This document shows positions 3,084 to 41,754 of a stretch of DNA of 41,754 nt, piece after piece. Made by a program: the position numbers and the translations under genes. The stretch is from an uncultured Clostridia bacterium (GTDB taxonomy: Bacteria; Bacillota; Clostridia; Oscillospirales; Oscillospiraceae). The stretch is from the NCBI GenBank assembly GCA_945875335.1, contig CAMCKD010000007.1, forward strand, positions 1 through 41,754, given 5' to 3'. The first letter of the stretch is position 1. Every line of letters starts with the position of its first letter. The notes under the pieces were generated by a model. The model did not search any database and had not been told where the DNA came from. It was given only the letters and a program-made list of their open reading frames with translations.

Positions 3084-3127
3084 CTTGCTTTTCTCCTGCC
3101 AAGTTAAATGTCCAAAAAGCGGGAACA

Positions 3128-3226
3128 AAGCCTTCTATTTTCGGGGGTTTCCCCGGTTTTCTCTTAGGGGGGGCAGGATGCGGGAATTTGCCCGGTCGAG
3201 GATGTGGGAGATTGCCTTGTTACAAC
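3128..3226 (-). repeat. Extra copy of the repeat tail module
   Basis: This stretch repeats the last ~98 bases of the 0.7 kb direct repeat (compare 3842-3940 and 17269-17362): AAAGCCTTCTATTTT, a CGGTTTTCTCTTAGGGGGG block, and GGATGTGGGAGATTGCC ending in GTTACAAC. It stands alone directly before the full left repeat, as if a previous unit had been cut short. Confidence 0.75.
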
Positions 3227-3597
3227 GCCTGTCCCAGGGCAAACCCAAATATCCTCATTTTTCTCAAAAAGGGCAAATTCACATATCCTCCATTGCCTTT
3301 CCCATTTTCCCCCATTAAGTTCCATTTTCTTCCCATTCAGTTCCTGACCCTTTTCTTTCCCATTCTTTCCCATTCTTTCCCATTCCTTTCTCATGCGTTT
3401 CTCGTCTTTCAGGAACTTTTTAACGAGATATGATGAGAAATCCCACGTCTTCCCCATTCTTTCCATGGAGTATCACAGGATATTTCTTTTAATAGTATAA
3501 GTATTACTTTTGATATACGAAGAAATACTTCTGAAATAATATGAAATGAACGATATTTACTGAAATGTGCTGATAGAAAGTAGGAATTCATAGGATA

Positions 3598-3764
3598 TTC
3601 CTGTCATTTCTCGAAGAGGGAAAACAGGAAATTCAAAGGGTTTCTCGTCATTTCCCGAAGGGAGAAATCGAGAGATTCATAGGATTTTCTCGTCCTTTCT
3701 CGAAGAGGAGAATACGAGGAATCCAAACTTTTCCCATTCATTCACGAAGTGGGATAAATGGGGA
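3598..3764 (-). ncRNA. Array of four CUUCG hairpins in copy A
   Basis: Four hairpins lie at about 3598-3630, 3641-3675, 3687-3719 and 3730-3764. Their plus-strand CGAAG tips sit at 3612, 3656, 3701 and 3745, an almost exact 44-45 base period. On the minus strand each tip reads CUUCG. The next two pairs outward change together: CU/AG, CC/GG, CU/AG, CA/UG. The outer stems also differ but still pair (for example TTCCTGT/ACAGGAA and TCTCG/CGAGA). This is what a selected structure looks like. Whether it acts as RNA or as DNA is not known. Confidence 0.55.
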
Positions 3765-3812
3765 ATATTTGGAGATTCAAGTGAATTTCTTGGCGTTTCT
3801 GCGGGCTTTCTT

Positions 3813-3852
3813 GGATAAAAAAAGAAGGCCCTGCAATACTGCAAAGCCTTCT
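3813..3852 (-). terminator. Intrinsic terminator inside copy A
   Basis: AGAAGGC and GCCTTCT (3823-3829 and 3846-3852) pair, with inner TGCA/TGCA pairing. On the minus strand a run of seven T follows. It would end transcripts coming from the 4063-4455 gene. Confidence 0.75.
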
Positions 3853-4062
3853 ATTTTCTTAGGTTTTTCCCGGTTTTCTCTTAGGGGGGGTGGATGCGTG
3901 ATTTTGCCCTAGAGAGGATGTGGGAGATTGCCTCGTTACATAGTTCGCTTTGCGCCACTATTATAACTCAAGCTGGAAGCTTTAGCAACCAAAAGATTGA
4001 ACCGATAGTAATTATTTCTACAGACGTTCCAGACTGGTCTCTACAAACCATAGCAAACTCGA

Positions 4063-5180: not shown

Positions 5181-5990
5181 TTATCGGCACATATTATATT
5201 GTTTCACACCTCTATAGCATACAGCAACCAAGAATTGCTTGACAGCAATCACCGCAACTGCTGTAATAGCTATCCACGAATCGCCTGGTCGCTCTGCAAC
5301 CGCCACCAAATCAATCAGTGCCAAAGTCATCAAAAGGCCAGCAAAAATGCTTAATCCTGATAGATGCGTTTTACTCATCAAAGATTTACCGTTCTCGATA
5401 TTCTGACGAATAGTGGTCATTGTTTTTGCGATATCCCTATGGTAGCAGTAAGCGAGAAAGATGATAAGAATACCAAACCCAAGTATTATTAGCATTGTAA
5501 TTGCCAGTGTTGTATCAATTAAATCCATCATAGTAATTAACATGACAATTGCACCGATGCCGTCAATAATAAGGAGTAGACAGGCAATGGCAGTGATATT
5601 ATGAGTAGCTTTAATCAATCCTGCTCCTCGGTTCATGAAGCGAAGAAATGTTGCCCCTATGGCATCGAGAATAGAAAGAACCGGAATGATTAGAATGAAA
5701 ACAAAAAGATACAAAGAACTAATTACGGTATAGATATCTTGCGCTTTAACGTTTTGCAAACTGATATTCAGTTCATTGGCAATCCCTGCGCTGTTGAGAA
5801 TGGCCTGAAAAAATTCAACCAGCAAATCTCCAATCTCACCAACATTTACCCCTATTTCCCGAAATACAGGAACGATAGGCTTCGCAATGATATAAATACC
5901 ATACGCCGCAAATACACCATATACAAGTTTAATAACCCATAGTAACGTGGCAGATACTGATTTCGTATAAGTTATTTCCTTATTCATCAT
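5181..5990 (-). CDS. Multi-span integral membrane protein, unknown function
   Basis: The protein has 269 residues with about six hydrophobic segments (near residues 14-40, 88-110, 125-150, 155-185, 210-230 and 235-255). Polar links between them include a charged loop RQNIENGKSLMSKTH. AGGAGGGAAC lies directly before two consecutive ATGs (5990 and 5987), and either could start translation. No transporter signature or catalytic motif is recognised. It is an island gene with AT-rich codons. A diverged repeat-tail terminator follows it. Confidence 0.7.
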   Translation of the reverse strand: MMNKEITYTKSVSATLLWVIKLVYGVFAAYGIYIIAKPIVPVFREIGVNVGEIGDLLVEFFQAILNSAGIANELNISLQNVKAQDIYTVISSLYLFVFILIIPVLSILDAIGATFLRFMNRGAGLIKATHNITAIACLLLIIDGIGAIVMLITMMDLIDTTLAITMLIILGFGILIIFLAYCYHRDIAKTMTTIRQNIENGKSLMSKTHLSGLSIFAGLLMTLALIDLVAVAERPGDSWIAITAVAVIAVKQFLVAVCYRGVKQYNMCR

Positions 5991-6233
5991 GTTCCCTCCT
6001 ATTCAAATCATGGCAACAATACACTACTACACTCATAGTTTTGACTAGACACATACTTTTTTGGAACGCTCCCAGTGCTTGCTACAAACAAAAAGCGCCG
6101 TCTGCCTTCTTACTGTGGATTCCGTCACCTTGCATCCAAAAAAACACAACATCATTATATTTAATGACATATTTTGTGTCAACATGATTTACTCAAAGAA
6201 ACCGCAGAAATCTAAAAGAATACATATTTCCCA

Positions 6234-6428
6234 TCATCGATACTCCGCAGTGATTTCCCCGAAGGTTCTTTTCCCGGCAATATAGTCAGCATAGACCACC
6301 TCTGGAGTTTTGCCATGGAATACCTTACACATACCGCAGTTATCACAGTCGGACTTGCAGCGAAAGGTCGTTTGAATATAGTTTTCCCGTTCCTTCTGGG
6401 TTGAGCTTCCAATTTCCGGCGGCAGCAT
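6234..6428 (-). CDS. Small Cys4-motif protein, copy 2
   Basis: The protein has 64 residues starting at the ATG at 6428 behind a GGGGGGAA ribosome binding site. It is identical to the 1951-2145 product except at four positions (N/T, I/V, R/H, A/G). CKSDCDNCGMC is fully kept. It starts 31 bases after the stop of the UDG-like gene and is probably co-transcribed with it, whereas copy 1 follows an esterase gene. The similarity of the two copies stops just outside the gene, so the gene with its own ribosome binding site seems to be the duplicated unit. Function is unknown. Confidence 0.75.
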   Translation of the reverse strand: MLPPEIGSSTQKERENYIQTTFRCKSDCDNCGMCKVFHGKTPEVVYADYIAGKRTFGEITAEYR

Positions 6429-6459
6429 CTGATTCCCCCCTTCACATATGGTTTCCTCT

Positions 6460-7059
6460 CTACCCGCTGTATTTTGATAGTTCCCGCAAAACCTCTTCCC
6501 GGTAATCCTCTTTCCCAATGGTATAAGAATAATGCTTTATCTGGGCGATTCTGTATCGATTGCCCAGGTGCTTGCATAGCAGCTCATAGCTTTTCCCGCC
6601 CAGGGCAACCAGCACAGGGTCTTTCTTCAAATAGCTGATTTCCCGTTCAAAAGCCTCGATATTCTCTTCTACAAACCAGGGATTCTTTCTGATATACGCT
6701 CCAACCTTGTTGGAATCAACTTCCGAGTAAAATTTCAGCAAATCCGTTATGTAGGAACCCCAGTAGGGTGTCCCCATCAGCGCATATCGCAGTTTATAAT
6801 CATTTTGCCTGGAGTAACCGCTATGGAAATTCGCCCAGTCGATTGTGCCGCCAGCGCTGATGTCACCATGGGTGCTTGACCAGTTCAGCCCAACAAAAAT
6901 GAATCCCGTATCCAGCATCGATAATAGCTGGGGGTCATTGACCCAGGACATATCATTTGTATTGGATTTCGGCGTTTCGCCCGGAGCGGCCCAAACAGTC
7001 CAACTGCCGCATTGCCCATATTTCTCTTTCAGTGCTTGATAGTTTTCCTGCGAAATCAT
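6460..7059 (-). CDS. Uracil-DNA-glycosylase-superfamily-like protein
   Basis: The protein has 199 residues from the ATG at 7059. A GTG at 7068 is also in frame, but the AGGGG upstream fits the ATG better. Features reminiscent of the UDG fold are an early hydrophobic strand with FVGLNWS (where the water-activating motif would lie), GSYITDLLK (like the family ITN-x-K strand), DPVLVALGGKSYELL (the usual late strand-helix) and a terminal IKHYSY (like the HPS loop). The motifs are divergent, so activity on uracil cannot be claimed. It is followed closely by the Cys4 protein gene. The alternative is another alpha/beta nucleotide-binding protein. Confidence 0.55.
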   Translation of the reverse strand: MISQENYQALKEKYGQCGSWTVWAAPGETPKSNTNDMSWVNDPQLLSMLDTGFIFVGLNWSSTHGDISAGGTIDWANFHSGYSRQNDYKLRYALMGTPYWGSYITDLLKFYSEVDSNKVGAYIRKNPWFVEENIEAFEREISYLKKDPVLVALGGKSYELLCKHLGNRYRIAQIKHYSYTIGKEDYREEVLRELSKYSG

Positions 7060-7540: not shown

Positions 7541-7638
7541 CTATTATAAATCTAAGGTTCTATTAAAACTATTGAAAATTAGACTGATTTCGTATAGAAT
7601 AGCAGTAATATTTCTAACGAGCCTCAGATTTATAATAG
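7541..7638. promoter_or_regulatory. Inverted repeat around the resolvase promoter (res/operator candidate)
   Basis: CTATTATAAATCTAAGG at 7541-7557 is matched by its reverse complement with one change at 7622-7638. Between the arms lies TTGAAA (7572-7577) and, 17 bases on, TAGAAT (7595-7600), a promoter for the resolvase. Small serine resolvases usually bind inverted sites next to their own gene. Such sites both direct recombination and repress the gene. This role is inferred. Confidence 0.45.
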
Positions 7639-7649
7639 GGGGAGTAAAA

Positions 7650-8336
7650 ATGGAGTATGGATACTGCCGCATATCAACCAAGTCACAGAACATTGACCGT
7701 CAGGAGAGGAACATCCTAGCCGCATATCCCAACGCAACCATTGTCAAAGAAATATTCACCGGGACAACCTTCCAAGGCCGGGAACGTATGGAAAAGCTGC
7801 TGAAGAAGGTCAAGCAAGGAGATACCATCATCTTTGATTCTGTCAGTCGTATGAGCCGCAATGCAGAAGACGGTTTTGCCCTGTATGAAAAGCTCTATGC
7901 CGATGGCATCCATCTGGTGTTTCTGAAGGAACCGCACATCAACACCGACACCTACAAAAAGGCCCTATCTGCTAAGGTCTCTCTGACCGGCGACAAGATT
8001 GACTTCATCCTGGAAGGAGTCAACCGCTACTTGATGGAGCTTGCAAAAGAGCAGATACGCCTTGCCTTTGAACAAGCCCAAAAAGAGGTGGATGACCTTC
8101 GGCAGCGCACCAAAGAGGGCATGGTCACAGCAAAACGCAACGGCAAACAGATAGGCCACAAAGAAGGAGCAACGCTTCATGTCAAAAAGAAAGAACCAGC
8201 AAAAGCCGCAATCCTACAGTATAGCCGTGATTTTGGCGGCAGCTTGTGCGATAAGGATGTGATGACGCTGGCAAGAGTATCCCCTATGACCTATTACAAG
8301 TATAAGAAAGAACTCAAGCAAGAGCAATCCGTCTGA
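7650..8336 (+). CDS. Serine recombinase (small resolvase/invertase type)
   Basis: The protein has 228 residues. The ATG at 7650 follows AGGGGGAG, so the longer upstream frame is dropped. The N-terminal catalytic domain shows YGYCRISTKSQNIDRQ with the nucleophile Ser at residue 9, then the arginine-rich FDSVSRMSRN segment. A long E-helix-like, Lys/Glu-rich region (about residues 130-170) precedes a C-terminal helix-turn-helix (about residues 195-222: DKDVMTLARVSPMTYYKYKKEL). The domain order and length fit resolvases or invertases rather than large serine integrases. It could resolve cointegrates made by the Tn7-like transposase, as TniR does in Tn5053-type elements, but it lies 5 kb from that block. 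Confidence 0.9.
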   Translation: MEYGYCRISTKSQNIDRQERNILAAYPNATIVKEIFTGTTFQGRERMEKLLKKVKQGDTIIFDSVSRMSRNAEDGFALYEKLYADGIHLVFLKEPHINTDTYKKALSAKVSLTGDKIDFILEGVNRYLMELAKEQIRLAFEQAQKEVDDLRQRTKEGMVTAKRNGKQIGHKEGATLHVKKKEPAKAAILQYSRDFGGSLCDKDVMTLARVSPMTYYKYKKELKQEQSV

Positions 8337-9175: not shown

Positions 9176-9484
9176 TCATTCTTCAACAGGCCCAAAAATT
9201 GCCTCGTAGCGGTCTGGAGAAATATACATAGCGCACCAGTCCTTTGCCTCATCCAATGTCAGAGGAATGATGTTTTCGCCATTCTCCCAACTATGTGGAG
9301 CTACCTCTTTGCGATACTTACTTGCTGGGCCACCAAACCCATAAAGGAAGAACTCTCCTGTCTTTTTTTGATACAGACCTTCTTCGTAGTAAGAGTAGTC
9401 AAATCTATTTCTTCCATATGAAATACTCTTGATTTCTTCTGCCGTTTCTGTGTTATACATTTTCTTGTTAATAATTTTTTTCAT
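9176..9484 (-). CDS. Small conserved-type island protein, 102 residues
   Basis: The protein starts MKKIINKKMYNTETAEEI and contains FFLYGFGGPASKY and LTLDEAKDWCAMY. AAGGA lies upstream with an 11-base gap. The pattern (Lys-rich start, MYNTETAE, GxFFLYGxGGP, PLTxDEAxxW) matches a small protein type I recall from mobile elements of gut Firmicutes, whose function is unknown to me. It may be co-transcribed with 8652-9032. A 143-base stretch between them holds no gene I can support. Confidence 0.65.
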   Translation of the reverse strand: MKKIINKKMYNTETAEEIKSISYGRNRFDYSYYEEGLYQKKTGEFFLYGFGGPASKYRKEVAPHSWENGENIIPLTLDEAKDWCAMYISPDRYEAIFGPVEE

Positions 9485-10360
9485 TCTTTATGTTATCCTT
9501 TCTTTATTTTTAGGGAGCTAACCCCACAATGGTGGGGGATTCGGGCCTGTGACCCAATATTAATATTTGTACCATTTAATAATAAGGTGCAAACCACACC
9601 CAATGTGGGGAAAAGAGCAACTAAGCTGCTCCATCAGGAATAGGCTATCCAGATATTGCGTCATAGGCACAGGTGATAACCGATAGCACTTATTCAGTTG
9701 TAAATCTCCTGCGGATGGTCTATGTTGGCTTTCGCATATTAGCACTTCCTTTCTGCATATAGTTTCATCTAGGACGTTTATATTATCTAGCGACCAGCGC
9801 CAATCACGCATTGCAATAATTTATAATTTTATCTTGTTTTTTATGTGAGTGCGCAGGATTATAGCTAGTCATATTTAGAATTTATCTTTCGTTTTATATC
9901 AATCCAAAAATTACAATTGAATCAACTTTAATTAATATTTTATCTTAGTTTATGTGTTTTTTAATATGTTTTTTATAATCTTTTGATATATTTACAATTC
10001 ACTTGCTTACTTATATTATAGAGATTCAACTAATTAATTTGAGGGTATTTCAAATAATAATATTAAAAAATTTTCAATCTTTTTTATCTTTTTAATCACT
10101 ATTTTGAGATAACCCTCTCAATAATAATATAGTTAATTCTTTAATTAATTGGATGGTGATTACAGGAATTTACGCATATTTATTCGCTTGTTATTGCACA
10201 TCGTCTCATATATATAGAAACGGAATATGTATCGAAACTTAGATGATACACATGCCGATAGTATCATAATGACTTGACTGCTTTTTCAAAACCAGCGACA
10301 AGTGGGAAGTTGAATCCTATGAGAAGAAGGCATTTGTTAGAGTTATGTTATTTGAGATAA
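9485..10360. other. AT-rich gene-free stretch of the island
   Basis: No supported gene lies here. A CCCCAC/GGTGGGG hairpin occurs near 9522-9540, and 9560-9811 can be read on minus as an 83-codon frame with no ribosome binding site. From about 9830 to 10260 the DNA is extremely AT-rich. It contains an imperfect inverted repeat, GAGGGTATTTCAAA near 10041 against TTTTGAGATAACCCTC near 10102. Plus-strand 10300-10360 can be read as a short Lys/Glu-rich peptide and may be a decayed gene. It could be a promoter, an origin-like or xenogeneic silencing region, or simply a remnant. Confidence 0.4.
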
Positions 10361-10392
10361 ACAAAAACCACGGACGAATCCGTGGCATTTGT
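10361..10392 (-). terminator. Terminator after 10407-11129
   Basis: CCACGGA and TCCGTGG (10368-10374 and 10379-10385) form a perfect stem. On minus a TTTTTGTTT tail follows. An almost identical hairpin stands behind the next paralogue, at 11266-11297. Confidence 0.8.
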
Positions 10393-10406
10393 TTTATTCA
10401 AATGAG

Positions 10407-11129
10407 TTAATTCAAGGCTTCCAAAGCGTAGTCCGATTCAGACTTCATCATTCCTACCGGGTCACGTTTAATCGGGGGGCCAAAAGTGTCCTCTCCCTGC
10501 TGCTCCCAATATACATGGGAATAAATGGTGAACAGCGTAGACTTCGTTTTGTTCAAAAACATCCGAATTTCTATGGAATGTATTTTAGTAACATCCCATA
10601 CACCTGTAGCTTCATACAAAGCGCCTACTTCATCTACATCCGTAAGGTCGATTCTGTATTTTCGAGTTACAAATGTCATTCCACCAATTGTGCTCACTAT
10701 ATCTTCCTCGAAGAAGCTTTGGGCATTAGACATGTCAATTCCCGTGTTGTTGACAAAGTCATCTGCCTTCTCAATTCTCACATTCCAGACAACATCGTCA
10801 TCATCCATCTGCACCTGGCCGACAACAACATCACCGATTTTTCCAACCTTGATGGTTTCGTGTTTGGTGTGCTTGAAGAAATCAATCCCATTATTCATTC
10901 CTTCCTTTGCCAGCATCGCCGGAATTTGCCAGGTTTCAAAGGGCTCGAAGTCAGGAGAATTGACCAGAATGAAATCATCACTCTGGAAATAATCCTCCTC
11001 TGCCTCGTCGGGGGCAGTCGTTTCTTTCGGTGCCGGTTTATTCTCAGTGGGGGATGCTGCACTTACCCTACAAACACACATGGGCAATGCGATTAACACA
11101 GCGAGAATCAAGCATTTTAAGTATTTCAT
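10407..11129 (-). CDS. Secreted island protein, paralogue of 11317-12090
   Basis: The protein has 240 residues from the ATG at 11129 with AAGGGAG upstream. Residues 1-25 form a signal peptide ending near VSAAS, followed by a Thr/Glu/Pro linker and a globular domain. The central block, with GKIGDVVVGQVQMDD and VVWNVRIEKADDFVNNTGID, is nearly identical to the neighbour encoded at 11317-12090. The C-terminus SDYALEALN is also shared. The two genes and their terminators look like a tandem duplication that has since diverged. No known domain is recognised. The location outside the membrane is inferred from the signal peptide. Confidence 0.75.
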   Translation of the reverse strand: MKYLKCLILAVLIALPMCVCRVSAASPTENKPAPKETTAPDEAEEDYFQSDDFILVNSPDFEPFETWQIPAMLAKEGMNNGIDFFKHTKHETIKVGKIGDVVVGQVQMDDDDVVWNVRIEKADDFVNNTGIDMSNAQSFFEEDIVSTIGGMTFVTRKYRIDLTDVDEVGALYEATGVWDVTKIHSIEIRMFLNKTKSTLFTIYSHVYWEQQGEDTFGPPIKRDPVGMMKSESDYALEALN

Positions 11130-11265
11130 TTTGTTTTCTCCCTTCAAGTTTTCTATGGAACCAATACAGATATTATACGAAATCTGTGACCTTTTGCAAG
11201 CCTGAAAGGTCAAAATATTACCCGTGAAAGGCGTATACACAAGGATTTTTTGGACATCCAGAAAA

Positions 11266-11297
11266 ACAAAAACCACGGACGAATCCGTGGCATTTGT
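11266..11297 (-). terminator. Terminator after 11317-12090
   Basis: CCACGGA (11273-11279) pairs with TCCGTGG (11284-11290). A TTTTTGTTTTT tail follows on minus. It matches the terminator at 10361-10392, supporting duplication of gene plus terminator. Confidence 0.8.
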
Positions 11298-11316
11298 TTT
11301 GTTTTATTCGATTGGT

Positions 11317-12090
11317 TTAGTTCAAGGCTTCCAAAGCGTAGTCTGCTTCAGACTTTATTATCGCTGCCGGGCCACGTTTCACGTTGTCCCACATTAAGGT
11401 ATTTTCTCCAGCTTGAAACCAGCATCCTTCCCTATAAAATGTGTATAACATTGATTTCGTTTTATTTAGAACAAACTCAATTTTGACAAAACGGGCGTTA
11501 CTAAGGTTCAATTCCTCCCCCGCTTCTAACGCTGCATCTATTGCATCCATGTCAGAAAAGTCAACGAAATAATTCTTATAGATATACTGCATCCCATGAA
11601 CGGACTGTTCATGTTCCAAGGTTTGTTCAGCAGAAGAAATATCAATTCCCGTATTATTGACAAAATCATCAGCCTTTTCGATACGCACGTTCCATACAAC
11701 ACCATCGTCCATCTGCATCTGCCCAACAATAATATCGCCAATTTTTCCGACAATGATGGAATCAGGCTTTGTATATCTGAAGAAATTGATATCATCAATC
11801 CCTTCCCGTTCCAGCATCAGGTGGATGTGAGAAAACTTAAAGGGTTCAAAGTCAGGAGAATTGACCAATGTGAACCCATCATAAGGTTCCTCGGGAAGCA
11901 TATCGGTTGGTTCTGTTGCTTCGATAATATCCTCAGCCTCAGTTGCGGCTTCTGTTTCAGTCACTGCTGTTGACGTTTCTTTCTGGGTTTCTTTCGGGGA
12001 AGAAGGCGGTTCAGAACTCACGGTTCTGCATCCCACCATGGCCACTGTTGCTACCATGGCAAACATAATTAAGACTCTTTTTAATTGCAT
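11317..12090 (-). CDS. Putative lipoprotein, paralogue of 10407-11129
   Basis: The protein has 257 residues starting at the ATG at 12090. A hydrophobic N-terminus ends in VAMVGC, a lipobox-like site with the lipidated Cys at residue 21. A Ser/Thr/Glu linker (to about residue 70) leads to a domain with LVNSPDFEPF, GKIGDIIVGQMQMDD and VVWNVRIEKADDFVNNTGID, shared with the next gene downstream. The paralogue uses a plain signal peptide instead. Function is unknown. Surface display next to other linker-bearing proteins suggests a cell-envelope or host-contact role, but this is only inference. Confidence 0.75.
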   Translation of the reverse strand: MQLKRVLIMFAMVATVAMVGCRTVSSEPPSSPKETQKETSTAVTETEAATEAEDIIEATEPTDMLPEEPYDGFTLVNSPDFEPFKFSHIHLMLEREGIDDINFFRYTKPDSIIVGKIGDIIVGQMQMDDGVVWNVRIEKADDFVNNTGIDISSAEQTLEHEQSVHGMQYIYKNYFVDFSDMDAIDAALEAGEELNLSNARFVKIEFVLNKTKSMLYTFYREGCWFQAGENTLMWDNVKRGPAAIIKSEADYALEALN

Positions 12091-13239: not shown

Positions 13240-13458
13240 ATGTATATAAAAATATATCAATGCAACCCGGAGCGGGATTACAACGAGCTGGCCTTTTGCA
13301 ACTATGAATTCGCTATGGCTCATGGAGGTATTGACCCGGCGAATTACGATATGGTATACGCCGGAAATGTCAACTGCAACACAGCGGACGATGTGTATGC
13401 AATGTTTAGCCACCGAACAACAGCATCATTAGCCTCCATCGGATGCCTGACATACTGA
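13240..13458 (+). pseudogene. 5' fragment of a YodL-type conjugative-element gene
   Basis: The frame starts at ATG 13240 behind GGTGGTGAT. Its first ~55 residues (IYQCNPERDYN, then GGIDPANYDMVYAG, VNCNTADDVYAMF) match the N-terminal pattern of YodL-domain proteins from Firmicutes mobile elements. After MF, where those proteins continue with a conserved domain, the sequence turns into the antisense of tnsC and stops at 13458. So only about 13240-13404 is the original gene. The break is a recombination junction with the Tn7-like block. Confidence 0.6.
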
Positions 13459-14300
13459 TACTGAAACAGAATTTGACATAAGTTACAGAATTCATTTCCA
13501 TATTCCATCGAATCATATTGCAGTCCCAATGACCGTCTAGCCAGCTGAAATGCCTGAGAGAAAAATTCCGTGCATTCAGGTGTCCCCACCATTCCTATGG
13601 AAATACCCGAACAATTAATGAGCTGCAGCAATGCACCCAGCAGATTGCGGCCATTCCTAGCCTGTGCGACATTCTGGATTTCATCAACAATCAGGATGCC
13701 GATGTGGTTGAGGGCAACCTGGCTGACGGTGCCAATGAGCATATCTGTAGTTGCCTTGGCACTGATGGATTTCAAATAGTAATTGCTGCCAAGCTGTTCA
13801 TCCACCACACGCAGGATTTCCAGCAGCAGTCCTTTCACAGAGGAGTCAAAGGGGCACTGCACCAGAACACAAGGGATAATCTTTGTAAATGGTTTGTCAC
13901 TCTCAATCACTCTGCCCTCTGTTATCAGCCGCACCGCATGGGAGATTGCACTTGACTTGCCGATGCCGCTTTTTCCAATAATTGTAAAACTGTCTGCACC
14001 GCCGATAATACCGTTGATAGTCGGCTGCGTATATCCTTTGTGATTTTCATTACCTTGCCGGATTCGGGCGATGCTCTCCTTTTTCTGTAATGACCGCAAC
14101 AGTGCCAGATAGAGCTTGCTGTAAATCTCTCTGCTCATATTATTAGGAATGAATACCCGATACAGGTTTGTCAACGCAATCAGCCGGTCAGCTGCATTTT
14201 CAAATCGGATGGTCGGGTCAAATACCGGCAGCACCGTCATCGCCTCTTCCAGCTGCTTTCCAGACAACATGGGAGGCAGTTTTTTCATAAAATCATTCAT
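13344..14300 (-). CDS. tnsC: TnsC/TniB-like AAA+ ATPase, C-terminus replaced
   Basis: The protein has 318 residues from the ATG at 14300 (AAGGAG, seven bases) and overlaps the tnsB stop by eight bases. Walker A GKSGIGKS is at residues 109-116 and Walker B ILIVDE at 202-207, followed by the sensor-like SIGMVGTPE. This is the regulator ATPase that links target choice to the transposase in Tn7/Tn5053-type elements. Family identity holds up to VVRWL near residue 298. The last ~20 residues are antisense of the YodL fragment, so the natural C-terminal end is lost. Whether it still works is doubtful. Confidence 0.85.
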   Translation of the reverse strand: MNDFMKKLPPMLSGKQLEEAMTVLPVFDPTIRFENAADRLIALTNLYRVFIPNNMSREIYSKLYLALLRSLQKKESIARIRQGNENHKGYTQPTINGIIGGADSFTIIGKSGIGKSSAISHAVRLITEGRVIESDKPFTKIIPCVLVQCPFDSSVKGLLLEILRVVDEQLGSNYYLKSISAKATTDMLIGTVSQVALNHIGILIVDEIQNVAQARNGRNLLGALLQLINCSGISIGMVGTPECTEFFSQAFQLARRSLGLQYDSMEYGNEFCNLCQILFQYQYVRHPMEANDAVVRWLNIAYTSSAVLQLTFPAYTIS

Positions 14301-16086
14301 GAGCATTCTCCTTTGCGTAGTCCCGGTGAGTTCGATACTGCTCTTTCTTCCGGGTACTGCGAATATTCTTGACCTGGGTATCGCTGCGCTGGGTCTGGGC
14401 TGCTATCATCTGAATATGCTTTGCCAGGTCAATCTGGGCCTGAAGGCTGTCGGATGCAGAATCATTCACAATCTTCCTGCTCGCCTTTTGGATTCCTTGA
14501 ACATCATCCAGACATTTCCCTTTGAAGCGGCTCTCAATCAAGGTGAACTGGATGTAGCAACCCTTCTCAACGAGCCAGACCTGAGTCACATCATCAGGAT
14601 TGTAAGCAACCAGGGCCTCGCCGCCTTTGAGAAAGCTCTCTGTATAAGCATCGTGTCGGTAACGCAGACCATTAATCTGTAAGCCCTTGCGAGTGAATCT
14701 TCCCGTGGCCCTGGGAAGCAAAACTTGAATCAGCTGCTTTGGCGTGACTGAAACCATATTGGCTCCCAGCTGCTTCATTCCCCATGCAAAGATGCTGCTG
14801 GCATAGGGCTTAACCCCGTCAGCTAACATCTGCTCTGTAAAGGGGAACTCCATCACCCGACTGTTGTTGTAATAGACAATACAATGCAGGATGATTTGTT
14901 CAAATTGCTTCAAGGTCAGACAGGCATCCTTGCGGTAGTCATGCGCTCCACGCTCCTGATAATCAGGTTCAATAACGCCTTTTCCCTTGAGCTGCTTTTT
15001 GAAACTGTCCTGAATCAAATCAAAGAATTTTTCTACTCTGCCTTTCAACTCGGGACGGTAGGCACTGAGATTCACAATCTTTACACCCAATTCTGTTATC
15101 TGAGAAAAGGTATCACCCGCATATTCGCTGCCCATGTCCGTCACCAGCGTTCCAGGAATCGCATTACTGTCCCATTGTCTGCGCTCAATGAACACCCCAT
15201 GGTCTGTGCACCATTGCACTTTGTCTGTCACCACATTTAGCATCAAGCCCCGGAGACTGTATGTGCCACCTTCCCAGCCCAGGGAGTAGCCGCAACACAG
15301 GCCGCTGAAGGCATCCACACAGGCAGTCATAACAGGTCTTCCGACAAGCTTGCCTCCGTCATCCACCAGATAAATGTCGCAGATGGTGGAATCCAGCATT
15401 CCATAACCAACGCTGGGGCAGAACTGCTGCACTCCATCGCCCAGGAGGGGACGGCTGTTTCTCTGGTAGTCCTTAATACCATCCCTTGAGATATGTAGAT
15501 TCTGCAAGCTCCTGGTCTTGCGGTAGAAATACCTGAATTGATGGAACGAAGGATACCCGTCAACCAAAACGCCTTGGGCATCACAGTATCTCTCTTTCAG
15601 CATCATGGTATAGGCAGTCTGGAGGCTGTTCTTGTTTTTGGTGTAAAAGAACTTGTTCAGCCCCCAGCGGATGTTTTTCTCATCCTGGGTCAGTTCTCTG
15701 CTCTCTTTTGGTACAGGTGCAAGTGCGTTCATGTCCTGATAGGTCAGATAGAGGCACAGATACTTCCGAATGGTCTGCTTGCTCTGCTGAGAAGACAGGG
15801 CCCGTATTACTTCACTGCGCTTGACTTCGTCTCCGATGAACGGCAGTACACCGGCGATTCGTGTATATCGCTCCTGGGCAATGCGCTTTTCCTCCTCGGA
15901 CAGTTGTCTATCCAGCGGCATACCAGTTCTCTCATACAATTCGGTATCAGGACAGCCCTCATAGCCAGACAGGTTTGCAGACAGCACCCATTGGGGCATC
16001 GTCCTTTTGATGCAGTCAATCACCAAAGAATGATTCTCCCTCTGCATCAGCACCCGAATGATTTGATTATCACTCTTCAGCAGCAT
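14293..16086 (-). CDS. tnsB: TnsB/TniA-like DDE transposase
   Basis: The protein has 597 residues from the ATG at 16086, overlapping tnsA by 17 bases. A TTG at 16092 is an alternative start. The N-terminal third carries DNA-binding regions. The integrase-type core shows the DDE triad in good context: MLDSTICDIYLVDD (Asp232), LVTDMGSEYAG (Asp317) and KGRVEKFFDLIQ (Glu352). A Mu-type C-terminal beta-barrel follows, with about 60 basic residues at the end that could contact TnsC. The length is usual for this family. It would cut the 3' ends of the element and join them to target DNA. The reading frame is intact. Confidence 0.92.
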   Translation of the reverse strand: MLLKSDNQIIRVLMQRENHSLVIDCIKRTMPQWVLSANLSGYEGCPDTELYERTGMPLDRQLSEEEKRIAQERYTRIAGVLPFIGDEVKRSEVIRALSSQQSKQTIRKYLCLYLTYQDMNALAPVPKESRELTQDEKNIRWGLNKFFYTKNKNSLQTAYTMMLKERYCDAQGVLVDGYPSFHQFRYFYRKTRSLQNLHISRDGIKDYQRNSRPLLGDGVQQFCPSVGYGMLDSTICDIYLVDDGGKLVGRPVMTACVDAFSGLCCGYSLGWEGGTYSLRGLMLNVVTDKVQWCTDHGVFIERRQWDSNAIPGTLVTDMGSEYAGDTFSQITELGVKIVNLSAYRPELKGRVEKFFDLIQDSFKKQLKGKGVIEPDYQERGAHDYRKDACLTLKQFEQIILHCIVYYNNSRVMEFPFTEQMLADGVKPYASSIFAWGMKQLGANMVSVTPKQLIQVLLPRATGRFTRKGLQINGLRYRHDAYTESFLKGGEALVAYNPDDVTQVWLVEKGCYIQFTLIESRFKGKCLDDVQGIQKASRKIVNDSASDSLQAQIDLAKHIQMIAAQTQRSDTQVKNIRSTRKKEQYRTHRDYAKENAHE

Positions 16087-16420
16087 CGACAACCAGCCCC
16101 CAATCTGTGACGCCTCTGCGCTGCCAGTAAGATTGGCTCAAATCCAGCAGCCTCATGGTCATGGGTTTCCCCAATACATTCTGAAATACGCATTCCCGAA
16201 CCCTGATTTCCCCGTTGGACATAATGGCAACAACATCTGTCATGTATTCCTTTACGTCTTCGCCATCAAGAGGAACATTACATTGGATTTCAACCACAGC
16301 AGGGTCTTTGTCCAGCATTTCGACATACGCTGCTTGGATAGCATCATAGGTCTTGCAATGCAGCCTGCACTTGTTAATCAGTCTCTTTTCACACCGGCCT
16401 TTGTAGTTTTTCTTTCTCAT
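16070..16420 (-). CDS. tnsA: TnsA-like endonuclease subunit, apparently degenerate
   Basis: The protein has 116 residues. The ATG at 16420 follows AGGAGG with six bases. Position before tnsB and the pattern fit TnsA: a helix, then LDKDPAVVEIQCNVPLD, then EYMTDVVAIMSNGEIRVRE, then RLLDLSQSYWQRRGVTDWGLV (like the TnsA segment with ERRYWQQK). In standard TnsA the catalytic set is Glu, Asp and a Lys of E-V-K. Here Asp62 is kept, the Glu site looks like Gln30, and the EVK site reads RECV (75-78). The protein is also short, with no C-terminal TnsC-binding domain. It may be a structural partner only. The assignment is moderately sure, and the loss of activity is inferred. Confidence 0.65.
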   Translation of the reverse strand: MRKKNYKGRCEKRLINKCRLHCKTYDAIQAAYVEMLDKDPAVVEIQCNVPLDGEDVKEYMTDVVAIMSNGEIRVRECVFQNVLGKPMTMRLLDLSQSYWQRRGVTDWGLVVDAAEE

Positions 16421-16473
16421 AACCAACCTCCTAAAAGATGTATTTTTGAACGCCATCCCTCTGAGAAAACCAA

Positions 16474-16650
16474 TTTTGGGGATTTTCCCAAAAATGGGAG
16501 TGTTTTTGGGGATTTTCCCAAATTTGACCTCGTTTTTGGGAAATAACAAAATCGTTACCTTTATTCCTGCAAATAAGTTTGGAATAATCAGTATAAATGT
16601 AAAATCTCCAAACTTTTTGCAGCATTTCATTTTCCCAAAAACGGGTTTTT
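16474..16650. repeat. Transposon-end repeats (TnsB-site-like)
   Basis: TTTTGGGGATTTTCCCAAA occurs at 16474-16492 and again at 16504-16522. A shorter CGTTTTTGGGAAAT lies at 16531-16544 and an opposite-facing TTTTCCCAAAAACGGG at 16630-16645. Tandem and inverted short repeats of this sort next to tnsA are expected where TnsB binds the element end. The exact terminal bases are not clear. TGTCA at 16663-16667 abuts the right direct repeat. Confidence 0.5.
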
Positions 16651-17020
16651 AAAAAACCTATATGTCACAGGGCAAACCCAAATATCTTCATTTTTCTCAA
16701 AAAGGGCAAATTCACATATCCTCCATTTCCTTTCCCATTTTCCCCCATTAAGTTCCATTTTCTTCCCATTCAGTTCCTGCCCCTTTTCTTTCCCATTCTT
16801 TCCCATTCCTTTCTCATGCGTTTCTCGTCTTTCAGGAACTTTTCAACGAGATATGATGAGAAATCCCATGCCTTCCCCATTCTTTCCATGGAGTATCACT
16901 GGATATTTCTTTTAATAGTAAAAGTATTACTTTTGATATACGAAGAAATACTTCTGAAATAATATGGAATGAATGATATTGATTGAAATATGCTGATAGA
17001 AAGTAGGAATTCAAAGGATA

Positions 17021-17187
17021 TTCCTGTCATTTCTCGAAGAGGGAAAACAGGAAATTCAGATGGTTTCTCGTCATTTCCCGAAGGGAGAAAACGAGAGATT
17101 CATAGGATTTTCTCGTCATTTCTCGAAGAGGAGAATACGAGGAATCCAAACTTTTCCCATCCATTCACGAAGTGGGATAAATGGGGA
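17021..17187 (-). ncRNA. Array of four CUUCG hairpins in copy B
   Basis: CGAAG tips on plus lie at 17035, 17079, 17124 and 17168, with the same 44-45 base period as copy A. In hairpin 2 copy B has A where copy A has T, which adds a pair to the outer stem (TCTCGT/ACGAGA). In hairpin 4 copy B loses one pair. The arrangement is otherwise identical. Confidence 0.55.
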
Positions 17188-17238
17188 ATATTTGGAGATT
17201 CAAGTGAATTTCTTGGCGTTTCTGCGGGCTTTCTTGGG

Positions 17239-17275
17239 TAAAAAAAGAAGGCCCTGCATTGCTGCAAAGCCTTCT
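17239..17275 (-). terminator. guaA/pur operon terminator within copy B
   Basis: AGAAGGC (17246-17252) pairs with GCCTTCT (17269-17275), with TGCA/TGCA inside. On minus a run of T follows. It lies about 95 bases after the guaA stop and would end the purine operon transcript. Confidence 0.8.
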
Positions 17276-17369
17276 ATTTTCTTAGGTTTTTCCCGGTTTT
17301 CTCTTAGGGGGGTGGATGCGTGATTTTGCCCCGGAGAGGATGTGGGAGATTGCCTCGTTACAACAGCCA

Positions 17370-18908
17370 TCATTCCCATTCCACCGTTGCCGGGGGCTTG
17401 GAGGTGATGTCGTAGACCACCCGGTTGATGTGGCGGACTTCGTTGGTGATGCGGTTTGATACCTTGGCCAGCAGGTCGTAGGGGATGCGGGCCCAGTCGG
17501 CGGTCATGAAATCGTCGGTGGTGACGGCCCGGATGGCCAGCAGATGGTCGTAGGTGCGGTGGTCGCCCATGACGCCCACGGTGCTTACCCCGGGCAGGAC
17601 GCAGAAGAACTGAGCCATGTTCTTTTCATAGCCGTTTTTCGCCATCTCGTCCCGGAGCACCCAGTCGGCCTCCTGGAGGATTTTCACCTTTTCGGCGGTG
17701 ATTTCGCCGATGATCCGCACCCCCAGGCCGGGGCCGGGGAAGGGCTGCCGCCAAACCAGCTCCTTGGGGATGCCCAGCTCCTCACCCACCCGGCGAACCT
17801 CGTCCTTGAAGAGATCTTTCAGGGGCTCAATGGTGCCCAAAAACTGCACATCCTCCGGCTGGGCCACCATGTTGTGGTGGGTTTTGATTTTATCGGCCTC
17901 GCCCTTGCCGGATTCAATGCGGTCAGGGTAGATGGTGCCCTGGGCGAAGAAGCTGTCGGCGCTTCCCTGGCAGCGAATTTCGTCCCAGAAGGCCTTATAG
18001 AACTCGGTGCCGATGATCTTCCGCTTTTCCTCCGGGTCGGTGACGCCCTTGAGGCAGCGCAGGAAATGCTCCTGGCAGTTCAGACGGACAAATTTCATAT
18101 CGAAGAGCCGGGTGAAGGTCTCCTCCACGAAGTCCCCCTCGTCCTTGCGCATCAGGCCCTGATCCACAAACACGCAGGTCAGCTGATCTCCCACGGCCCG
18201 GGAGATGAGACCCGCCGCCACGGAGGAATCCACGCCGCCGGACAGGCCAAGGATGACCTTCTTGTCCCCGATCTGCTGCCGGAGGGAGACCACGGTATCC
18301 TCGATGAAGGAGTCCATCCGCCAGGTGCCCTCGCAATGGCATACATTGTACAGGAAATTCCGCAGGATTTGCTTGCCGTATTCACTGTGGGTGACCTCGG
18401 GGTGAAACTGGACGGCATAGAGCTTCTTTTCGGCGTTTTCCATGGCCGCCACCGGGCAGACCTCGGTGTGGGCTGTGACCCGGAAGCCCTGGGGAACCGC
18501 CGCAATTCGATCCGTATGGCTCATCCAGACCACGCTCTCGGCGGGGACACCCTCCAGCAGGCAGGAGTCGGACACATCCAGCAGGAGGCTGATTTTGCCG
18601 TACTCGCTGGTTTCCGCAGTGATGACACTGCCGCCGCCCATCCAGGCGGTGAGCTGGGCGCCGTAGCAGATGCCGAGGATGGGGATGCCCAGCTCCAGCA
18701 CCTTGGGGTCATAGTGGGGCGACGACATGTCATAGACGCTGTTGGGGCCGCCGGTGAAGATGATGCCGCAGTAACCGGCAGCAGCGATTTCCTCCGGGGT
18801 GATGCCGTTATAGGGCTTGATTTCGGCGTAGACATTCAGGTCACGAACCCGGCGGGCAATCAGCTGGTTGTACTGGCCGCCGAAGTCCAAAACGAGGATT
18901 TTTTCCAT
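17370..18908 (-). CDS. guaA: GMP synthase (glutamine-hydrolysing)
   Basis: GuaA makes GMP from XMP, ATP and glutamine in the cytoplasm. The protein has 512 residues from the ATG at 18908 (AAGGAAGG upstream), the normal length. The class I glutamine amidotransferase domain has GICYGAQ with the nucleophile Cys81, and FHPEV with His169 and Glu171. The ATP-pyrophosphatase domain has LSGGVDSS near 222-229, and the C-terminus is the dimerisation domain (ending PPATVEWE). It is the last gene of purC-purA-purB-guaA. Its 3' flank is a common insertion point for genomic islands, and here the island begins right behind it. Confidence 0.98.
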   Translation of the reverse strand: MEKILVLDFGGQYNQLIARRVRDLNVYAEIKPYNGITPEEIAAAGYCGIIFTGGPNSVYDMSSPHYDPKVLELGIPILGICYGAQLTAWMGGGSVITAETSEYGKISLLLDVSDSCLLEGVPAESVVWMSHTDRIAAVPQGFRVTAHTEVCPVAAMENAEKKLYAVQFHPEVTHSEYGKQILRNFLYNVCHCEGTWRMDSFIEDTVVSLRQQIGDKKVILGLSGGVDSSVAAGLISRAVGDQLTCVFVDQGLMRKDEGDFVEETFTRLFDMKFVRLNCQEHFLRCLKGVTDPEEKRKIIGTEFYKAFWDEIRCQGSADSFFAQGTIYPDRIESGKGEADKIKTHHNMVAQPEDVQFLGTIEPLKDLFKDEVRRVGEELGIPKELVWRQPFPGPGLGVRIIGEITAEKVKILQEADWVLRDEMAKNGYEKNMAQFFCVLPGVSTVGVMGDHRTYDHLLAIRAVTTDDFMTADWARIPYDLLAKVSNRITNEVRHINRVVYDITSKPPATVEWE

Positions 18909-18971
18909 TAAATTTCCTTCCTTCTCTCGGGATACAAGAACAGGGAATGCATGCAGCATTCCCTATCCATT

Positions 18972-22595: not shown

Positions 22596-23360
22596 TCAAT
22601 GCCGCAAAAACCCGATGTATTCGTCAAACAGATTAAAGAGCATATCCCCCGCGCACACGGGCAGGGCGCCGTCGGTTCCGGGCAGGGGCACATAGGTATA
22701 CAGGTCTCTTGCCCGGGTGAGCACCAGGGCGGGAATCACATCGTAGTCTGGGCCGAAGAGCACCTCCAGATATTCCACATATTTCGCGGCCTGGAGCACC
22801 TCCTGCTGCTGGATTTCCTCCTTCATTTTGAATTCCAGGGCGAACACCTTGTTTTCGGTGATCACCAGCACGTCCGTATAGATTCGGATATATCTTGCCC
22901 GCTTGATGCGCAGCTCAAACCCGATCTCCCAATCCGGGGCGTACACCCCCTGCAAATCCCCGAAAAGATTGACCATCACCTCCCGGCAGTCCCGGAAGGA
23001 GTGCAGCAGGCCCCGGGTGTCGTTCAGGTTCCGGCCGTTGCTCCGGCAGCCCGCCACCATGGCCTCCATCCACTGCTGCTCCGTAAGGGTCAGAAAATCC
23101 GAAACCGCTGCGTAATAGCCGCAGAAATTGCCCAACCCCCGATGGGGTCGGGACTGGCGGATCAGGCCGTGCCAGCAGTAGTTTTCGTCCCGGTAGCACA
23201 GCTCCTTTAGGAAGGGAGCGCAGTACAGATACCGATTGATCTGGTGCTTGTCCGCCGGAACCAGCTTTTCCAGCTCCCGGGCCTTCACCCCGTCCCGGCG
23301 GCAGATCTCATGATACAGTGCCCGCTCCACCATGTCCGTCCTGTGAAGATGATTGTCCAT
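22596..23360 (-). CDS. PD-(D/E)XK-nuclease-like protein with N-terminal winged-helix-like region
   Basis: The protein has 254 residues from the ATG at 23360 with AAAGGTGG upstream. Residues about 10-70 are helical and basic and look like a DNA-binding or winged-helix part (ALYHEICRRDGVKARELEKL...NRYLY). In the C-terminal half, IRIYTDVLVI, then KVFALEFKMKEE, then QQQEVLQAAKYVEYL fit the D...E-x-K...Q pattern of the PD-(D/E)XK superfamily (Asp, Glu-Phe-Lys, then a Gln-rich helix). The role could be restriction-type nuclease or a nuclease-derived binding protein. It does not lie in a defence locus. It is transcribed in the same direction as the pur operon but ends before its promoter. Confidence 0.55.
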   Translation of the reverse strand: MDNHLHRTDMVERALYHEICRRDGVKARELEKLVPADKHQINRYLYCAPFLKELCYRDENYCWHGLIRQSRPHRGLGNFCGYYAAVSDFLTLTEQQWMEAMVAGCRSNGRNLNDTRGLLHSFRDCREVMVNLFGDLQGVYAPDWEIGFELRIKRARYIRIYTDVLVITENKVFALEFKMKEEIQQQEVLQAAKYVEYLEVLFGPDYDVIPALVLTRARDLYTYVPLPGTDGALPVCAGDMLFNLFDEYIGFLRH

Positions 23361-29196: not shown

Positions 29197-29290
29197 CCAT
29201 TACCTCCAGAAAAAGATTTCCAAAGGTATTGTTTGCCAGCACTGGGAAAAATATTCCGAGAAACCAGCCCCATTCGGTTACAGGACAGAA

Positions 29291-29464
29291 AAATTGTTGT
29301 TTAGCGCACCCTTGCCCTCCCCTCTGGGGAGGGTGGCCGAGCGCCAGCGAGGTCGGGAGAGGTGTCGCCCACTAAAGCGTACCAGCAACCAACGTTTGAC
29401 ACCCCCTCAGCCTTCGGCAGCTCCCCCAGAGGGGGAGCCAAGGGTACTCTGCAAACAACAATTT
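29291..29464. repeat. MITE-like repeat, copy 2
   Basis: Bounded by AAATTGTTGTTT (29291-29302) and AAACAACAATTT (29453-29464). Inside are two GC-rich hairpins (CCCTCCCC-TCT-GGGGAGGG and GCTCCCCC/GGGGGAGC-type) and a GCCGAGCGCCAGCGAGG block. It is nearly the exact reverse complement of the 35250-35432 copy. It lies in the 286-base gap between the SLH gene start and the end of the feo genes and could act as a terminator for feo. Confidence 0.85.
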
Positions 29465-29482
29465 ACGATTTCTTTCCGGGGA

Positions 29483-32458: not shown

Positions 32459-32461
32459 GAC

Positions 32462-32654
32462 AAATTGTTGTTTGACGCGTTCTCTTGCCCCCCTCTTTGA
32501 GGGGGGACAGGGGGGAGTGTCGTTTCGTGGATGCTGTCGGCTTCCGATTTTGAACCCCAGTTCCTCCGAAGCGACGGCACCCCCTCAGCCTCGCTGACGC
32601 TCGGCAGCTCCCCCAGAGGGGGGGAGCCAAGGGCGTACCCCGCAAACATAATTT
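32462..32654. repeat. MITE-like repeat, copy 3
   Basis: AAATTGTTGTTT (32462-32473) and AAACATAATTT (32644-32654, one end changed). The interior is partly different from copies 2 and 4 (its left half is unrelated apart from a CCCCCCTC/GAGGGGGG hairpin), while the right half keeps CAGCCTCGCTGACGCTCGGC and the AGAGGGGG hairpin. It touches the stop codon of the next minus-strand gene. Confidence 0.75.
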
Positions 32655-35219: not shown

Positions 35220-35249
35220 ATTGCCGCCAGCTCTCGTTGATGAAACGAT

Positions 35250-35432
35250 ATATTGTTGTTTGCAGAGTACCCTTGGCTCCCCCTCTGGGGGAGCTGCCGA
35301 GCGCCAGCGAGGCTGAGGGGGTGTCAAACGTTGGTTGCTGGTACGCTTTATTGGGCGCCACCTCTCCCGACCTTGCTGGCGCTCGGCCACCCTCCCCAGA
35401 GGGGAGGGCAAGGGCGCGCTAAACAACGATTT
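35250..35432. repeat. MITE-like repeat, copy 4, between deoC and deoD
   Basis: The ends are ATTGTTGTTT (35252-35261) and AAACAACGATTT (35421-35432). The interior is the reverse complement of copy 2 with few changes. Copy 2 lacks about nine bases of the GCTGGCGCT stretch present here. The element stands inside the nucleoside gene run, so its GC-rich hairpins could lower expression of deoD, deoB and cdd. Confidence 0.85.
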
Positions 35433-35489
35433 GTCCGAATACTGCGTTGGGTCAATCACCACATACTATTTATAAAGGAGGAATCACCT

Positions 35490-40118: not shown

Positions 40119-40272
40119 AAAATGTTGTTTGTACAGGCCTTCGTAGGGCGGGGTCATGACCCCGCCGACCACGTTGTGGCTTGGAACATATCCCATTCAA
40201 CGAAAGCACCCAGAAATCGTTACCGATCGGCGGGGTCATGACCCCGCCCTACGAAGCGATAAACAACAATTC
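40119..40272. repeat. MITE-like repeat, copy 5
   Basis: AAATGTTGTTT (about 40119-40130) and AAACAACAATT (40261-40271). The interior differs from the other copies: two ~30-base inverted arms with GTAGGGCGGGGTCATGACCC at 40145 on, mirrored near 40228-40257, and a different centre. The shared ends with a different body suggest a family moved by the same enzyme. The remaining bases of the 313-base gap 39987-40300 hold only a weak promoter for the CobW gene (TATAAT near 40021). Confidence 0.7.
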
Positions 40273-41647: not shown

Positions 41648-41685
41648 ATGCATCCTCTTTTTCTTTCTCATTCGCTTCTGTCAGC

Positions 41686-41754
41686 AAATTGTTGTTTGCT
41701 GCACCCTTGCCCTCCCCTCTGGGGAGGGTGGCCGAGCGCCAGCGAGGTCGGGAG
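41686..41754. repeat. MITE-like repeat, copy 6, cut by the window end
   Basis: AAATTGTTGTTT at 41686-41697, then GCACCCTTGCCCTCCCC, the CTCTGGGGAGGG hairpin and the GCCGAGCGCCAGCGAGG block in the same orientation as copy 2. The rest lies outside the window. Confidence 0.85.

Follow-up and report, generated by a model that had tools for sequence, protein, structure and literature searches.

The regular array of four small hairpins studied here lies in a 0.7 kb repeat which, judged from sequence, bounds a damaged Tn7-like element inserted 3' of guaA in the window (the whole stretch of 41,754 nucleotides analysed). The original prediction had offered a transposition-related repeat as one option for the array, and this option is now directly supported, since the repeat stands at the ends of a Tn7-like element as its terminal unit. 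What is better established is the architecture of these ends: inverted TGT...ACA ends can be recognised in many relatives, in which the unit is placed between a housekeeping gene and tnsA, and in some genomes the unit is recognisable at both element ends in direct orientation. The function of the array is what we infer. In our best explanation, which we hold with about even confidence, the array belongs to a Tn7-like terminal unit with a join-dependent promoter, an antiterminating leader and the array in the leader RNA, and the transposase genes would be read once the far and near ends are joined.

The terminal unit and the element in the window

The repeat and the element that it bounds comprise the following features:
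3230 to 3940, minus strand: terminal unit, distal (far-end) copy, from repeat comparison
16663 to 17362, minus strand: terminal unit, proximal copy, between guaA and tnsA, from repeat comparison
3126 to 3224, minus strand: partial third copy (outer end and part of the terminator), 99 bases, from repeat comparison
3225 to 3229, no strand: gap of exactly 5 bp that separates the distal inner end (3230) from the further outer end (3224), from the sequence
17370 to 18959, minus strand: guaA, insertion neighbour, with the element 3' of the gene; named from sequence
16070 to 16420, minus strand: gene for a 116-aa protein at the tnsA position, with conserved counterparts in relatives by sequence comparison
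14293 to 16092, minus strand: tnsB/tniA transposase, Mu-transpos_C, best solved relative Tn7 TnsB
13344 to 14306, minus strand: tnsC/tniB ATPase (TniB/AAA; TniB E 1.5e-13)
7572 to 8336, plus strand: serine recombinase gene (resolvase/invertase type) inside the element, from a Pfam match

The two full copies stand in direct orientation and differ at 36 of 711 aligned columns. On the minus strand the distal copy starts TGTAACGAGGCAATC (from 3940) and finishes TTTGCCCTGGGACA (3230), and the window repeat spans TGTAACGAGGCAATC to TTTGCCCTGNGACA, a TGT...ACA pattern whose two ends are related. The repeat extends beyond the frame of the original prediction, to 3230-3940 and 16663-17362, plus the partial third copy; its proximal border lies 7 bp past the stop codon of guaA (this name and that of ppdK, the neighbour in other loci, are ones that we take from the genes' own sequences). 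The partial copy is read as a remnant of an earlier insertion, and the 5-bp gap at the far end resembles what a stacked insertion would leave. The two full copies and the partial one, all inside the window, are the only copies in the draft genome of origin; a search for phage or plasmid copies found none, and across 400 genomes of the bacterial family the only other matches, of 30-36 bp in L005 and L006, were taken as chance likeness in coding DNA.

The window tnsB matches Tn7 TnsB (7pik) with an E-value of 3.9e-39, and a sequence-only search gave no convincing family or structure match for the tnsA-position protein; a TnsA endonuclease is found in some but not all Tn7-like elements. The likeness of the window tnsC to its relatives ends near residue 301-305 of 412-419, and tniQ was not found in the draft genome of the window element. 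A TniQ/TnsD selector was present in 10 of the 12 genomes searched (E 4.3e-21 for that of L070) and absent from G000 and G412. With tnsC cut short and a search for tniQ negative, the window element is probably defective and unable to move by itself. Among the cargo between 3941 and 13340, five proteins were tested and none was in Pfam; the serine recombinase alone matched. Two duplications were also seen here: a 245-base repeat at 1947-2191 and 6230-6474 (89% alike), the first copy outside and the second inside the element, and the neighbouring genes 10407-11276 and 11317-12090, which resemble a tandem duplication (10355-12090) with an identical short hairpin behind each.

The unit in related loci

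A scan of genome contigs for relatives gave 37 loci. Where it was recognised in relatives, the unit measures about 0.23-0.7 kb, has inverted TGT...ACA ends, follows the 3' end of ppdK or guaA and precedes tnsA; a terminator-like hairpin stands near its outer end in the units inspected, and its content apart from ends and terminator differs among families. The ends were also searched blindly in 39 loci, made up of 35 of the 37 scan loci, the window and three of viral_contigs (L068, L069 and one further locus set were left out), of which 10 were too short. An inverted end pair ahead of tnsA that beat all 60 shuffles was found in 15 of the 29 testable loci, 12 of them being ppdK-type loci in which 21-25 of 26 bases match. 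The other 14 did not beat all 60 shuffles; the shuffles that matched or beat the locus numbered 1 in L051 and L055, 2 in the window, 3 in L052 and L057, 7 in L054, 10 in L065, 17 in L058, 18 in L061, 31 in L046, 42 in L099, 51 in L043 and L060 and 59 in L097. Taken alone, the window end pair is thus weak (17 of 26 bases in this search). The shuffles used here and for the hairpin tips below were approximate dinucleotide shuffles made for this analysis. By eye, an end-like sequence stands at the right place in the window, L043, L046, L051, L054, L055 and L061; in L047 and L048 the top-scoring pair falls at a second motif and not at the extreme end.

Six later loci gave a unit by pattern in L120, L121 and L124 and none in L122 and L125, L123 being too short. 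The L121 and L124 units adjoin guaA and that of L120 follows a guaA-tail-like stretch; in the shuffle test 1 of 60 reached L120 and 1 of 60 reached L124. As a separate observation, the last codons of guaA (GAGTGGGAAT and the stop) precede the unit in L090, L047, L054 and L120, where guaA itself is absent, as if the element carried its own landing site. Repeated TTTTTGGGA motifs, a possible operator, were also seen between the inner end and tnsA in the window (16460-16650) and several relatives, as well as in L097 and L098, two loci that showed no unit.

Two copies per element

In G408, direct copies at 5488-5747 and 22829-23077 lie on a single contig, 17.3 kb apart, with TTAAA at both outer flanks and all four unit ends retained (36.9-38.5 of 42.5 bits). 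The cargo of this element includes a Thoeris ThsA macro-domain protein (L070:10260-11420). Outer flanks on separate contigs read CAAAT twice in G405 and CGTTC twice in G412; the pairing of ends in G405, G406 and G412 is an assumption, because the ends sit on different contigs. The window flanks GCTGT/GGCGT agree at three of five bases, and the G406 flanks agree at four of five (GTTGT/GTTTT) or do not match (TTCAG/TCAGA), which leaves perfect 5-bp flanks in 3 of 6 pairs. Only a single copy was present in six of the nine genomes examined for a second one, including L038, whose tnsC frame is short (184 aa). G189 has one unit and G727 one unit and a partial one; a second-copy search in 12 genomes gave no match in nine, because the units of these nine diverge from the query.

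Copies within one element are alike at 93% in G408 (20 of 250 differ), 95% in G405 (12 of 262 differ) and 91% in G406. The G408 copies form a supported fork and the G405 copies are best matches by identity with an unsupported fork; the near copy of G406 is 92% identical to L039 and 91% to its own partner. In addition, contigs C13 of G412 and C37 of G420 start and stop within a unit, as does C70 of G406 as far as inspected. An assembler break at a repeat and a circle with one unit would look alike in such contigs, and a one-unit circle together with a solitary unit would yield the same ones.

These observations bear on a second reading, somewhat unlikely in our view, in which the unit itself would be the transposon and the rest a donor circle. 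Replicative transposition would produce a cointegrate with a direct copy on either side of tnsABC and the cargo; recombination between the copies would then free a one-unit circle and leave a solitary unit, and the array would be a passenger of the mini-transposon. Direct copies that each have their own inverted ends, as in G408, are what such a course predicts, and the likeness of copies within an element (window, G408 and G405, the G408 pair as a supported fork), the contigs that start and stop in a unit and the serine recombinase gene of the window element agree with it. So do the solitary unit of G410, where guaA is followed by a unit with no tnsA in the next 711 bases, and the joined form of L043, where promoter, unit and tnsA lie on one contig. 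The tnsA-position protein also has an invariant RE where Tn7 TnsA carries QVK. However, gene conversion between the ends of a composite element would account for the same facts, the flanks of the G410 solitary unit (TTCCG/TCTGA) mismatch, and L043 may be a tandem rather than a circle; the G406 near copy is as close to L039 as to its partner, and the fork in G405 lacks support. In the preferred reading, that of a composite Tn7-like element, movement would proceed via the outermost ends of the two units and leave 5-bp target duplications.

Terminator, putative promoter and leader

The sequence elements on which a join-dependent expression of tnsABC would depend are these:
3823 to 3852, minus strand: intrinsic-terminator-like hairpin, distal copy, from a terminator scan
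17246 to 17275, minus strand: intrinsic-terminator-like hairpin, proximal copy, from a terminator scan
3960 to 3988, minus strand: sigma70-like promoter TTGCTA-N17-TATAAT reading into the distal copy, at the same place in relatives, from a pattern scan
3947 to 3953, minus strand: leader segment GCAAAGC, pairing with GCUUUGC of the terminator first arm (3841 to 3847), from complementarity

The scan bore out the intrinsic terminator predicted at 3823-3852, in a region where terminator-like sites are no commoner than in shuffles (1 found, mean 1.3). At seven far-end junctions the pattern TTGNNN-N17-TATAAT, which also turns up elsewhere by chance, stands 19-24 nt ahead of the outer end of the unit. 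A minus-strand scan of 16400-17500 found no promoter, and no such promoter accompanies the units at L047, L054 and L090. A second far-end promoter motif with no unit behind it was seen at L070:10006, within the G408 element.

The predicted leader start pairs with the first arm of the terminator in three types, AUGCAAGGUC/GACCUUGCAU, CACAAGGUC/GACCUUGUG and, in the window, GCAAAGC/GCUUUGC, among which the bases differ and pairing is retained. The Watson-Crick run gave p <= 0.0012 in five of the seven far-end leaders, which are not independent of each other, 0.013 in the window and 0.098 in G406 C99, which fails; nine gene-side flanks form at most 5 Watson-Crick pairs with the terminator arm. 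Since lowest-energy folds with the leader present retain the terminator, antitermination would have to be kinetic.

Taken as a mechanism, these elements suggest that in the inserted state the terminator of the near unit would halt read-through from guaA or ppdK (the one at 17246-17275 would end that from guaA in the window), and no promoter is evident for tnsABC. Once a single unit connects the far and near ends, in a circle or a tandem, the far-end promoter would transcribe across the unit, and the start of this RNA could pair with the first arm of the terminator, so that read-through into tnsABC would be favoured. The promoter-unit-tnsA order of the L043 contig, as a joined form, and the guaA-side unit without a nearby tnsA in G410 also speak for this reading. 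In one lineage of the family, the array would form a structured segment of this leader RNA and would most likely influence how the tnsABC message is read through, how stable it is or how it is translated.

The hairpin array

The array occupies the same place in both copies, between the terminator and the inner end of the unit:
3598 to 3764, minus strand: array of four hairpins, distal copy (units 3600-3628, 3644-3672, 3689-3718 and 3733-3762)
17021 to 17187, minus strand: array of four hairpins, proximal copy (units 17023-17051, 17067-17095, 17112-17141 and 17156-17185)

All eight CGAAG tips of the original prediction were found exactly in place. Although none of 300 window shuffles reached three tips in a search for runs of four CGAAG at 42-47 nt spacing, 1 of 1024 pentamers outside the arrays likewise recurs four times in a row at 44-45 nt, so the regular spacing is not in itself the best argument. 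The stems say more, as the claim that their arms change together held: in the seven distinct window units all 49 cells of the seven named pairs are standard pairs, four of the seven pairs have double-sided changes, and the middle tip pair shifts between U-A, C-G and A-U, in line with the predicted variation of the flanking pairs. The covariation score of these units was reached by 0 of 500 shuffles and the count of double-changed pairs by 26 of 500. With two L043 units added, 98.4% of 63 cells pair and five of seven pairs are double-changed (0 of 500 shuffles for the score and 11 of 500 for the count). Unit borders and structure were picked from the same sequences that were tested, and the window units share descent, both of which tilt these shuffle controls in favour of the structure.

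A covariance model built from the window units only gave one match above noise in 632 kb of relatives, at L043 2816-2845, on the right strand and directly past the terminator (E 0.008, a rough value; the next was 0.33). The second L043 unit was detected only by the model which includes it. The array was absent from the other families of element, matches beyond L043 having E-values of 0.33 or worse in the 632 kb; in L033 and L034 contig ends cut the units short of the place of the array. A search of 400 genomes of the bacterial family with stricter filters gave strong matches in the own genome only, all within the two arrays. Ten other genomes had one weak match each (E 0.003-0.01, with about 4 expected and E-values rough), none in an array. 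Because L043 gave the sole match above noise and strong hits were confined to the own genome, we read the array as a structured segment of the leader that is specific to one lineage, a DNA function and a spacer being live rivals.

Folding gave a mixed picture. The stretch 3590-3770 reached z -2.4 as minus-strand RNA, z -5.1 as plus-strand RNA, with a different fold that joins the units, and z -2.0 as plus-strand DNA. The suggested unrecognised structured RNA is a possible reading, in that the stems are kept and a matching L043 unit lies at the equivalent place, but the folds do not choose between plus and minus strand. Of the features around the array, the T-rich tandem repeats are present at 3302-3401; the longer hairpin at 3387-3440 is indeed predicted by folding, although the stability of 3370-3600 is not out of the ordinary (z -1.4). 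In agreement with the view that no named RNA family has this order, Rfam gave no match at the gathering threshold over the whole window; five families hit at a lax threshold in 3100-4000 were rejected, all far below their own cut-offs.

The array could also have arisen as a by-product, through tandem duplication of a terminator-like hairpin, and serve only to insulate or space the unit ends, which we think rather improbable. It would suit the variable content of the units between families and the lack of the array in other families of element, but the arms are co-changed among the window units and in L043, and neutral repeats would not keep pairing.

Quite unlikely, in our estimate, is an array that acts as DNA, through plus-strand C-GAA-G hairpins (as cruciform or single strand) or, as the original prediction also offered, as an array of dyads bound by a protein, here of the host or of the element. 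Stable d(C-GNA-G) hairpins are known. The stems also covary as DNA dyads, the DNA fold reaches z -2.0, and past the terminator of L061 (about 9286-9400), in a unit of another family, we noted by eye ATGC-TTC-GCAT, GTGC-TAC-GCAC twice and ATGC-TGC-GCAT; with the GTCC-TTC-GGAC of some ppdK-type units, all these tips read C-GNA-G on the opposite strand. On the other hand, TTC/GNA tips are rare among perfect hairpins of at least 5 pairs in 21 stretches scanned, several ppdK-type units have other tips at that place, and one copy difference, T-A to T-G in one cell, pairs only as minus-strand RNA. As a family-wide rule C-GNA-G tips were rejected, not being general in spite of the several in L061. Transposase sites were dismissed, as the GGCAA that marks element ends was not seen by eye in the array.

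Relation to known systems

Most descriptions of Tn7-like elements are of inserters that have short ends and work by cut-and-paste or under RNA guidance. The elements here resemble Tn7 and its relatives in their TnsB and TnsC homologues, in TniQ (found in most of the relatives tested, though not for the window element), in TGT...ACA ends with repeated motifs like binding sites, in a fixed site by a conserved gene and, in some elements, in what may be 5-bp duplications. They differ in ends that are direct repeats of about 0.23-0.7 kb, each with its own inverted ends, in the marked shortness of the tnsA-position protein (about 115 aa) and in sites by guaA and ppdK. Tn5053/Tn402-type elements share a TniB-type ATPase, TniQ, a serine recombinase (in the window element) and a possible cointegrate pathway, whereas here a gene occupies the tnsA position and the end arrangement differs. 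With its small size, its inverted ends (recognised in 15 of 29 loci, the window pair being weak) and no transposase inside, the unit recalls MITEs, but in the own genome it is found only at the ends of its parent element and is not dispersed. As with the junction promoters of IS circles and the circularisation-dependent expression of Tn916, movement genes would be read only on end joining, although in the present elements promoter and genes are set apart by an entire terminal unit, terminator and leader included. REP/BIME, attC and CRISPR arrays likewise consist of regular small hairpins or repeats; dispersed palindromes of the REP/BIME kind were not met, strong unit matches in the own genome being confined to the two arrays, and a CRISPR array was rejected because there are no unrelated spacers, the linkers being alike by eye (tandem copies 72% matching).

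Cut-and-paste and cointegrate pathways are treated in PMC11406308. Such an end arrangement in Tn7-like elements did not come up in the accessible portions of the open-access literature searched, and the portions seen of PMC8649781, PMC10293859 and PMC11406308 do not describe it; for antitermination with circular intermediates, the open-access literature searched gave nothing.

The readings can be combined into a Tn7-like family whose ends would be direct copies of a complete mini-transposon, with the machinery as cointegrate 'donor' and with transposase genes switched on only by single-unit joining, via promoter, antiterminating leader and array. This combination seems to us unlikely. If true, it would represent a new way of silencing transposition while inserted, and perhaps of carrying cargo by cointegration; it could explain contigs that end inside units and would alter how the borders of such elements are called.

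Other repeats in the window

Separate from the array, the window holds a dispersed inverted repeat family, AAATTGTTGTTT...CTCCCCTCTGGGGAGG...GCCGAGCGCCAGCGAGG, which is MITE- or REP-like and occurs at 29288-29472, 32459-32622, 35242-35435 and 41683-41754. Additionally, a perfect 30-base inverted repeat with arms 58 bases apart lies at 40139-40256.
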